Of a stretch of DNA of 64,000 nt, positions 33,261 to 35,663 are shown piece by piece. Both the position numbers and the translations under genes were made by a program. The stretch is from the NCBI GenBank assembly GCA_963169235.1, contig CAUJCX010000006.1, positions 1-64,000 on the forward strand, read 5' to 3'. The notes beneath the pieces were generated by a model. That model ran no database searches, was not told the origin of the DNA, and saw only the letters and a program-made list of their open reading frames with translations. The DNA comes from Actinomycetota bacterium. GTDB taxonomy: Bacteria; Actinomycetota; Thermoleophilia; Miltoncostaeales; Miltoncostaeaceae. The first letter of the stretch is position 1. Each line of letters opens with the position of its first letter.

Positions 33261-33458
33261 GCGCTCCTCATTTCAGGTGACGAAACCCGGTGTCGCCGCC
33301 GTATCCTACGGGCCTGCGGCGTGGTGCGCATACGGTACGCGGCCCGCGGCGTGTGCCGCCACCCGGGCGGTTTCACACCGCGCGGAGCCGGGCCGGACCC
33401 CGCCCGCGCCGGGGCCGGTTCTTCAAGCCGGGCCGCGTCCGGACCATACGTGGTGTGT

Positions 33459-35225
33459 ATGAGTGCCCGGGTCGCCGCACGTCTGGTGCTGGGAGCCGTC
33501 GTCCTGACGGGCGCCGTCGCATGCCTTGTGACCGCCGCGCGCGGCATCGCGCTGCCGCCGTGGGCCTCCGCCGTGGGCGCGCTGGTGGTGCTGGCCCTCG
33601 TGGGAGACGCGGCCCTGCGGCTGCGTAGGACCCCCGCCCCCCGCGTGGACGCGCCCGCCCCGCCGGCGGCCGCGGGCGGCGCGGACGGCGACGACGTCTC
33701 CGACGCGATCAGCAGCGCGATGCAGGAGGGCATGGTGGTGCTGGACGGCGACGGGGTGGTGGTGGACGCCAACCGCCGTCTCACCGAGATCACGGGGGTG
33801 TCGCCCCACGAGATCGTGGGCAGCACGGTGCCGCTGGCGTTCTGGCCGCGTCCCACGGTGAAGCGCACGGCGACGTCCGCGGCGTTCACCGACGCGCTGG
33901 CGCAGACGGGTACCGGCTTCGACGCCGAGTTCGTCCATGCGACGGGACGCCGGCTGTGGCTCACCGTCTCGGCCGCGCCCACCGATGGCGCGGGCCACGT
34001 CGTCACGTTCACCAACGTCACCGCCCGCCATCTCGCCGACCACGAACGGCACGTGCGCGAGAGCACCGACCCGCTGACGGGCCTCGCGAACCACAGCGTG
34101 TTCCAGGAGCACCTGCGCGACGAGGAGATGCTGGCGCGGGAGACCGGGCAGCCGCTGTCGCTGGTGCTGTTCGACATCGATCACCTGAAGCGCATCAACC
34201 AGGTGCATGGCCACCGGGTGGGCGACGAGGTGCTGCGGGAGGCTTCCCGCCGGGTGCTGTCGTGCGTCAGCCCCACCGACCTGTTCGCCCGGGTCGGCGG
34301 CGAGAAGTTCGCGCTGCTGCTGCCCAACGCCCGCGGCGCCGACGCGCTGGCCACCGCCGAGCGCATCCGCGCGGCGGTGGGCGGGCTGCCCATCCTGCAG
34401 GCCGGCCACGTGACGCTGTCGGCGGGTGCGGCGTGCACCGACCTGGCCCGCGACAGCGCCGACCTCTACCGCCTGGCGGACGGCGCGCGCTACTGGGCGA
34501 AGTCGACGGGACGCGACCGCTGCGTGCTGTACCACCCCGACACGGTCTCGGCGATGTCCACCGACGAGTACCAGGCGTACATCGAGCGTCAGGGAGTGGT
34601 GGCCACCATCCACGCGCTGGCGCGGGCCGTGGACGCCAAGGACGCCAGCACCCGCGAGCACTCCGATCGCGTGGCCAGCCTGGCCGGGCGCATCGCGCTG
34701 GAGCTGGGGTGGTCGACGCGCGACGCCGACCTGTTGTACGAGGCCGGGCTGGTGCACGACGTGGGCAAGATCGGCATCCCCGACGCCGTGCTGTTCAAGC
34801 CCGCGCGCCTGACCACCGACGAGTACGAGCTCATCAAGAAGCACGCACCGCTGGGAGCCGAGATCGTGGCCGGGGCGTTGTCCGACAGGCAGGTGGCGTG
34901 GGTGCGGGCCCACCACGAGCGCTGGGATGGCCTGGGCTACCCGGACGGCCTGCACGGCGACGACATCCCGCAGGGCGCCCGCATCCTGGCGCTGGCCGAC
35001 GCGTGGGACGTCATGACCGTCGCCCGTATCTACTCGGAGCCGCGCTCGCTGGCGGCCGCCGTCGAGGAGTGCCGCCGCGAGGCCGGCAAGCAGTTCTGGG
35101 GCCCGGCGGTGGACGTGCTGGAGCGCCTCGTGCGCGACAACCTGGTCACCATCGAGAGCCCCACCGCGCCCGATGTGGCCGAGCTGGTGCCGTCGCGCAC
35201 CCACACCGCCGCGAACCCCGCGTAA
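33459..35225 (+). CDS. PAS-GGDEF(degenerate)-HD-GYP signalling protein
   Basis: A 588-residue c-di-GMP related protein. Two membrane helices (about 5-55) anchor it. A PAS domain (about 75-200) contains GMVVLDGDGVVVDANRRLTE. A diguanylate cyclase-like domain follows (about 210-365), where the active-site motif reads RVGGEKF (Gly280-Phe284) instead of GGDEF/GGEEF, so synthesis is probably lost. The C-terminal HD-GYP domain (about 380-560) is intact: EHSDRV, HDVGKIGIP (His433-Asp434), HAPLGAEIV and HHERWDGLGYPDGL. The net prediction is a c-di-GMP phosphodiesterase with a regulatory GGDEF-like domain. The start is ATG 33459; the longer frame is non-coding. Confidence 0.9.
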   Translation: MSARVAARLVLGAVVLTGAVACLVTAARGIALPPWASAVGALVVLALVGDAALRLRRTPAPRVDAPAPPAAAGGADGDDVSDAISSAMQEGMVVLDGDGVVVDANRRLTEITGVSPHEIVGSTVPLAFWPRPTVKRTATSAAFTDALAQTGTGFDAEFVHATGRRLWLTVSAAPTDGAGHVVTFTNVTARHLADHERHVRESTDPLTGLANHSVFQEHLRDEEMLARETGQPLSLVLFDIDHLKRINQVHGHRVGDEVLREASRRVLSCVSPTDLFARVGGEKFALLLPNARGADALATAERIRAAVGGLPILQAGHVTLSAGAACTDLARDSADLYRLADGARYWAKSTGRDRCVLYHPDTVSAMSTDEYQAYIERQGVVATIHALARAVDAKDASTREHSDRVASLAGRIALELGWSTRDADLLYEAGLVHDVGKIGIPDAVLFKPARLTTDEYELIKKHAPLGAEIVAGALSDRQVAWVRAHHERWDGLGYPDGLHGDDIPQGARILALADAWDVMTVARIYSEPRSLAAAVEECRREAGKQFWGPAVDVLERLVRDNLVTIESPTAPDVAELVPSRTHTAANPA

Positions 35226-35265: not shown

Positions 35266-35298
35266 TACTGTGGTCGCACCACGGAAAGGAGGTGATCC
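35266..35298 (+). promoter_or_regulatory. TACTGT -10 box and 15-base perfect Shine-Dalgarno
   Basis: TACTGT (35266-35271) would start transcription near 35278. GAAAGGAGGTGATCC (35284-35298) follows, complementary over 15 bases to the usual 3' end of bacterial 16S rRNA. Such full-length complementarity is exceptional in this window. It is not a 16S fragment: the bases beyond it do not match 16S rRNA. Confidence 0.6.
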
Positions 35299-35300
35299 GT

Positions 35301-35333
35301 TTGGGCGATCATTGTGGAGGTGGCAGTAGCTAG
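35301..35333 (+). CDS. 10-residue micro-ORF behind a perfect Shine-Dalgarno
   Basis: TTG 35301 lies 8 bases after GGAGG and reads MGDHCGGGSS before TAG 35331-35333. A GTG at 35292 in the same frame would add three residues but lies inside the Shine-Dalgarno. No family is known to me. The peptide could be a leader peptide, or its translation could control the downstream small ORF or hairpin. Proposed on the strength of the ribosome site only. Confidence 0.4.
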   Translation: MGDHCGGGSS

Positions 35334-35348
35334 GGGGCGTGTCCCTTT

Positions 35349-35438
35349 ATGCGCAGCCGCAGCAAGGGGACGAGGACAAAGCGCCTCGTAGCCAAACCCA
35401 TGCTGTCACCGGGGCCCGGTGGATCCCTTCCGACCTGA
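35349..35438 (+). CDS. 29-residue basic micro-ORF
   Basis: ATG 35349 follows the first micro-ORF by 15 bases, with GGGGG about 11 bases upstream. The peptide begins MRSRSKGTRTKRLVAKP and ends PGPGGSLPT. Seven of its first 16 residues are Arg or Lys, suggesting RNA or ribosome binding if it is made. Its 3' end runs into a strong hairpin. No known family recognised. Confidence 0.35.
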   Translation: MRSRSKGTRTKRLVAKPMLSPGPGGSLPT

Positions 35439-35456
35439 GGACGGGATCGCCGGGCC
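35413..35456 (+). other. strong 13-bp hairpin in the 35.3-35.5 kb spacer
   Basis: GGCCCGG (35413-35419) and GATCCC (35422-35427) pair with GGGATC (35443-35448) and CCGGGCC (35450-35456) around a 15-base loop, with a small internal loop. It may end the micro-ORF transcript. The whole spacer 35226-35525 holds only the promoter, the two micro-ORFs and this hairpin; the last 70 bases before tRNA-Glu show nothing further. Confidence 0.5.
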
Positions 35457-35525: not shown

Positions 35526-35598
35526 GTCCCCATCGTCTAGTGGCCTAGGACTCCGCCCTTTCAAGGCGGCAACACGGGTTCGAATCCCGTTGGGGGCA
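35526..35598 (+). tRNA. tRNA-Glu(TTC)
   Basis: Acceptor GTCCCCA pairs with TGGGGGC (one G:U). The anticodon stem is CCGCC/GGCGG with loop CTTTCAA, and the T-arm is ACGGG-TTCGAAT-CCCGT, with discriminator A. CCA is not encoded. Confidence 0.96.
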
Positions 35599-35663
35599 CT
35601 TCTCAAGAGCGCGCCCACGGCCGGGTCGGTCACGAACGTCCGGGCTTCCCGGACGCCGGGCCC

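Follow-up and report, generated by a model that had tools for sequence, protein, structure and literature searches.

A divergent Ms_IGR-5 RNA in a Miltoncostaeaceae genome carries a conserved micro-ORF that overlaps a covarying long-range helix

This analysis concerns an intergenic locus in a 64,000-nucleotide (nt) stretch of DNA, here called the window (positions 1 to 64,000 of contig CAUJCX010000006.1, assembly GCA_963169235.1), from an actinobacterium of the family Miltoncostaeaceae. Between a long open reading frame (ORF) and a tRNA-Glu gene lie a -10-like box, an extended Shine-Dalgarno (SD) sequence, a micro-ORF of 10 codons and a series of predicted helices ending in a terminator-like hairpin (Table 1). 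Comparison with its relatives places the locus, as a divergent member, in the Ms_IGR-5 family (Rfam RF02471, 'Actinobacteria sRNA', that is, small RNA); among them the ORF is conserved and the sequence of its peptide is not.

Table 1. Features of the locus and its neighbours, in window coordinates. P1 to P4 are predicted helices.
Feature	Position	Strand	Basis and remarks
Upstream ORF	33321-35225		HD-GYP is the label of a preliminary description, not typed independently
-10-like box TACTGT	35266..35271	+	Sequence; putative, predicted transcription start about 35277-35280
Extended SD GGAAAGGAGGTGATCC	35283..35298	+	Portion 35284-35298 pairs fully with the 3′ end of the genome's own 16S
P1 hairpin	35292..35312	+	Fold; GUGAUC 35292-35297 (SD tail) with GAUCAU 35307-35312, start codon in loop
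Micro-ORF, 10 codons, MGDHCGGGSS	35301..35333	+	TTG start, TAG stop at 35331-35333; conserved in relatives
Internal GAGGTGGC element	35317..35324	+	Second SD-like sequence; starts 14 nt before the stop (15 in most clades)
P2 5′ arm GGTGGCAGTA	35319..35328	+	Covariation and fold; inside the micro-ORF
Middle hairpin domain P3/P4	35334..35387	+	Fold; sequence and length vary between clades
Unpaired segment CAAACCCA	35393..35400	+	Directly before the 3′ arm; conserved, mostly GCGAAUCC-like in other clades
P2 3′ arm TGCTGTCACC	35401..35410	+	Fold and covariation
Terminator-like hairpin	35414..35455	+	Fold; no U-run in the window
tRNA-Glu	35526-35599		Downstream of the RNA

The preliminary description of this locus, which was made from the letters of the DNA, had pointed to the TACTGT box and to an SD of 15 bases. 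Both are present, and since the 16S ribosomal RNA gene of the same genome ends in ...GGCTGGATCACCTCCTTTCTAGGG (also given as ...GGATCACCTCCTTTCT), the complementarity of the 15-nt GAAAGGAGGTGATCC (35284-35298) to the 16S 3′ end is exact. When up to one mismatch was allowed, the 15-mer had two sites in the 2.94 Mb genome, namely this locus and the antisense of 16S, and the reversed 15-mer used as a control had 0. The first ORF was also correctly placed, with its TTG 8 nt after GGAGG. Relatives carry TANNNT-like boxes at a distance from the SD similar to that in the window, and GGAGGTG is invariant in alignment A1 (34 sequences).

No known RNA had been recognised in the sequence before. A relaxed-threshold search of Rfam revises this, as it matches the window to RF02471 over the full length of the model (positions 1-184 of 184) at 24.1 bits (E 0.0009-0.0023). 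Since this score is below the gathering threshold of 45 bits, the locus is a diverged relative and not a member by Rfam's own rule. Model R1, derived from 34 relatives (Ms_IGR-5 hits plus other loci) with the window's own family left out, scores the window at 45.3 bits (E 1.2e-8), establishing homology by an extended profile, and recovers 25/25 loci searched in that family. Within the family, blastn with the region finds the locus in most genomes, and in one member (G005) the Rfam and blastn matches coincide; the exact long pattern of the window, which is too strict, was found in this genome only among 198. Across 246 genomes of the phylum, the RF02471 model gives matches in 47 at E up to 0.001, 22 of them above threshold, and R1 gives matches in 93, with a single copy in all but one. 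The genome with two R1 matches, G266 (C207 and C163), has a contamination estimate of 7%. The window and Ms_IGR-5 have in common the full-length match, the sequence in which SD block, 3′ arm and terminal hairpin follow one another, the one copy per genome and a stand-alone transcript, which is predicted for the window. They differ in that Ms_IGR-5, first found in Mycobacterium smegmatis, is filed as non-coding and actinobacterial, has a Rfam consensus structure lacking the P2 helix found here and is described, in the texts that the search turned up, with no mention of the conserved micro-ORF; relatives also occur outside Actinomycetota.

The micro-ORF was compared in 154 distinct relatives, counted after identical 5′ segments had been merged and six motif hits had been omitted by eye (L066, L069, L076, L084, L161 and L176; most were apparent chance matches inside genes or lacked the architecture, and the stretch of L161 lay at the edge of its DNA and could not be cut out). 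In all 154, a start codon 7-13 nt downstream of GGAGG opens a frame that closes at a stop beside the internal GAGGUG element. The start is canonical in 130 and near-cognate in 24 (CTG, ATT, ATC and ACG among them). Shuffling the sequence that separates SD and element gives expected counts of 18.4 and 16.6, respectively. By frame, there are 130 canonical starts in frame and only 5 and 3 in the other two. TTG is the commonest start, and TAG, TGA and TAA interchange at one stop position, which in 153/154 follows the first base of GAGGUG by 14 or 15 nt. The distance from SD to element ranges from 24 to 40 nt, and start, frame and stop are retained through these changes of length, as in a translated ORF. 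Since the loci had partly been selected by the SD and element motifs, a held-out set was fetched with R1, consisting of 20 further hits retrieved without regard to an ORF, of which L206 repeats L063. The ORF is present in 19/19 of these loci (18 canonical starts and one ATC), and many of their elements would have escaped the motif scan. In 21 distinct relatives that have no ATG, GTG or TTG at the usual place, the codon exactly 8 nt past GGAGG is ATT, ATC, CTG or ACG and shares the frame of the stop (such loci include L017-L026, L053, L057, L060, L065, L074, L097, L113 and L135), a pattern that would fit tolerance of, or selection for, weak initiation.

Short ORFs are common, and the locus contains a second one, of 29 codons (35349-35438), that had been pointed out together with the first. 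It is indeed there, but it has no conserved start, frame or length in the relatives and was rejected as a chance ORF. That the first ORF and its SD also arose by chance in an intergenic spacer is refuted by the conservation of SD, ORF, stop and helix, and we give this explanation next to no weight.

Conservation does not extend to the peptide. The encoded peptides differ between relatives (MGDHCGGGSS, MIDLWTCEVAAR, MCDSRTREVAAG, MSSDQRVTVEVMSR), and the element itself is read as GGA GGT GGC (...GGGSS, then stop) in the window's family and as GAG GTG GCN (...REVAxx, for example ...REVAAG, then stop), in another frame, in most other relatives. Outside the element the peptide varies freely, and the part that is shared follows the nucleotides of the helix. 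In dual-function sRNAs such as SgrS/SgrT, RNAIII and SR1, a small structured RNA carries a short ORF whose peptide is a conserved product; in the window RNA no conserved peptide is found and the ORF overlaps a structural helix. A micropeptide gene, in which the peptide is the product, was one of the functions first suggested for the locus and would fit a conserved ORF behind a strong SD as well as the ribosome-protected reads on family members (PMC4974804). It is not supported, because the peptide and the reading frame of the element differ between clades, and we consider it very improbable.

The 180-nt RNA has a predicted folding energy of -88.2 kcal/mol and is more stable than 200/200 dinucleotide shuffles (z -3.8). 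Its long-range helix, P2, pairs the GAGGUG element with a 3′ arm that ends in CACC. In A1, 98.2% of the P2 cells are paired and changes on both sides are seen at 5/9 pairs. P1 is weaker than P2, with moderate support across relatives (z -5.2 in the main group and -2.9 in the window's family; 77.9% of cells paired). For P1 and P2 jointly, 0/500 shuffles reach the values seen for covariation score or for percentage paired, and when the two helices are slid, only 26-45% is paired. In 154 sequences, own arms paired with the 3′ region at -17.2 kcal/mol as against -14.4 kcal/mol for foreign arms (standard deviation 0.15), and there was no such effect on reversed sequence. Pairing of the 5′ leader with the SD tail had no support across relatives (z about -0.3). 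Pairing of the GGAC segment of the ORF with the loop of the 3′ hairpin gave no signal in a broad test and a moderate one in a focused test (z -6.4, reversed control -1.6), and a loop of this kind is absent from the window hairpin. When the window's family was aligned with MAFFT, RNAalifold found little structure because outliers misalign. A 13-bp stem reported in the preliminary description corresponds to the terminal hairpin, which exists but is interrupted and terminator-like and here has no U-run; in several relatives outside Actinomycetota a U-run follows it. The broader view taken there, that of a deliberate short message, has strong support where a role in ribosome binding is concerned, since SD, first micro-ORF, stop and long-range helix are kept in essentially every relative found.

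The surroundings of the locus are less constant than the locus itself. The neighbouring genes change between clades, and tRNA-Glu is downstream or nearby only in part of the window's family. At 70/119 high-GC (guanine plus cytosine) loci, the first gene called downstream by a simple predictor based on GC at third codon positions lies on the other strand. Together these observations favour an RNA, about 180 nt long, that stands alone; one copy is present in nearly every genome. In the trp leader, an attenuator based on an upstream ORF (uORF), the position of the ribosome on a short ORF selects the fold. An attenuator-like leader had likewise been suggested for this locus. In its classical form, with a leader peptide controlling the gene that follows (here tRNA-Glu), such a leader would be suited by the SD, the micro-ORF, the alternative pairings, the terminator-like hairpin and the tRNA-Glu of some family members. 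It is not supported, because the downstream gene is often on the opposite strand and the neighbours vary, and no downstream gene is consistently on the same strand. The ORFs moreover have no shared codon, and we judge an attenuator improbable. Ribosome position would choose the fold in the window RNA as in the trp leader and the translation-stress-sensing leader with the topAI uORF (PMC12121999); unlike these, the window RNA has no consistent downstream gene, conserved stalling codon or conserved peptide.

For other members of the family, expression has been documented. Transcription of Ms_IGR-5 was confirmed in Streptomyces lividans (PMC8079986), an sRNA unit corresponding to it was found in S. 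avermitilis (PMC8780764), it was seen in M. smegmatis (PMC10454040), and ribosome-protected reads on MS_IGR-5 were obtained in M. abscessus and M. smegmatis (PMC4974804). A literature search, to which subscription papers were mostly closed, found no account of a conserved ORF, P2 or a function for the family, and a search for the mycobacterial name through neighbouring genes found nothing.

We think it rather likely that the product of the locus is a stand-alone RNA that folds according to whether a ribosome occupies its micro-ORF, irrespective of the peptide; it is probably the passage of the ribosome, and not the peptide, that controls folding. The extended SD would recruit a 30S subunit, and the ribosome would translate 10-15 codons and halt at the stop 14-15 nt after the internal GAGGUG. 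With a ribosome at the stop, GAGG lies 7-8 nt upstream of the last sense (P-site) codon, which is the usual SD spacing, so that the anti-SD could hold the ribosome there. The GAGGUGGC doubles as the 5′ arm of the helix with the CACC-type 3′ arm, and a ribosome stopped here would cover it, so that occupancy and P2 would be mutually exclusive. Translation would then open P2 and free the 3′ arm, and without translation P2 would close. The output would most likely be that the freed 3′ region pairs with targets, or that ribosomes are trapped. An SD-like sequence also precedes the stop at the frameshift site of prfB (release factor 2), with a spacing of about 3. The window RNA resembles that site in the fixed distance between an SD-like element and a stop, and differs from it in its spacing of 7-8 nt, in having no slippery codon and in having no downstream coding frame.

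The main rival is that the RNA mainly ties up 30S subunits through its two anti-SD sites and often weak starts, and so tunes the supply of free ribosomes. Such a trap would be well served by the 15-nt complementarity, by a second SD-like element at SD spacing before the stop and by the frequent TTG and near-cognate starts, but it would need neither a conserved frame and stop nor a covarying long-range helix, and the RNA is single copy; we regard it as unlikely. Several points count against a fold set by ribosome occupancy. For this organism the case consists of comparison and a predicted fold, and the transcripts and footprints come from other species; the authors of the footprinting study warn that co-sedimenting ribonucleoproteins can yield ribosome-profiling reads on sRNAs (PMC4974804). 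Most loci were selected by their SD and element motifs. The sequences are related, so that permutation z-scores overstate significance, an effect that is reduced, but not abolished, by the reversed controls and the held-out set.

What is new here is the conserved micro-ORF, the non-conserved peptide, the covarying P2 and the patchy relatives in other phyla. In Streptomyces and mycobacteria Ms_IGR-5 is annotated as non-coding with no assigned function, and the ORF and P2 turn this catalogue entry into a testable mechanism. If the mechanism is true, the RNA would be a natural sensor of ribosome availability that could be studied in M. smegmatis or Streptomyces.

The family also extends to other phyla. 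Its breadth comes from a motif scan of named genomes, and the groups named are among the matches listed: Mycobacterium, Streptomyces, Nocardioides, Micromonospora, Actinomadura, Cellulomonas, Acidimicrobiia and Solirubrobacterales, and also metagenome-assembled genomes (MAGs) labelled Deltaproteobacteria, Acidobacteria, Nitrospinae, Nitrospirae, Krumholzibacteriia, Zixibacteria, Sumerlaeota, Planctomycetaceae and Spirochaetia. In these MAG matches, whose phyla are the bin labels as given, SD, ORF, stop, helix arm and terminal hairpin follow one another in the same order, and no other Rfam family matches at the RNA itself in the non-actinobacterial relatives. Two loci with non-actinobacterial labels, L110 and L125, exceed Rfam's own threshold. 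More tentatively, we suggest a class of bacterial RNA, not confined to Actinomycetota, whose micro-ORF would be kept for the sake of being translated and for nothing else; a ribosome stop at a fixed distance from an internal SD would be the input (ribosome supply or initiation state) and a long-range helix would be the switch for a trans-acting output. The RNA of L125 (labelled Acidobacteriota) is close to Acidimicrobiia members, and its contig is possibly mis-binned. Few genomes of the phyla to which L095 and L090 belong carry the motif (2/247 and 7/199), yet it occurs in several independent ones; R1 finds 3/118 in the phylum of L095. The MAGs labelled Deltaproteobacteria, Acidobacteria and Krumholzibacteriia (L095, L142, L184, L186-L190, L080 and L096) represent several independent genomes each, and their patchy distribution could reflect old loss or transfer.
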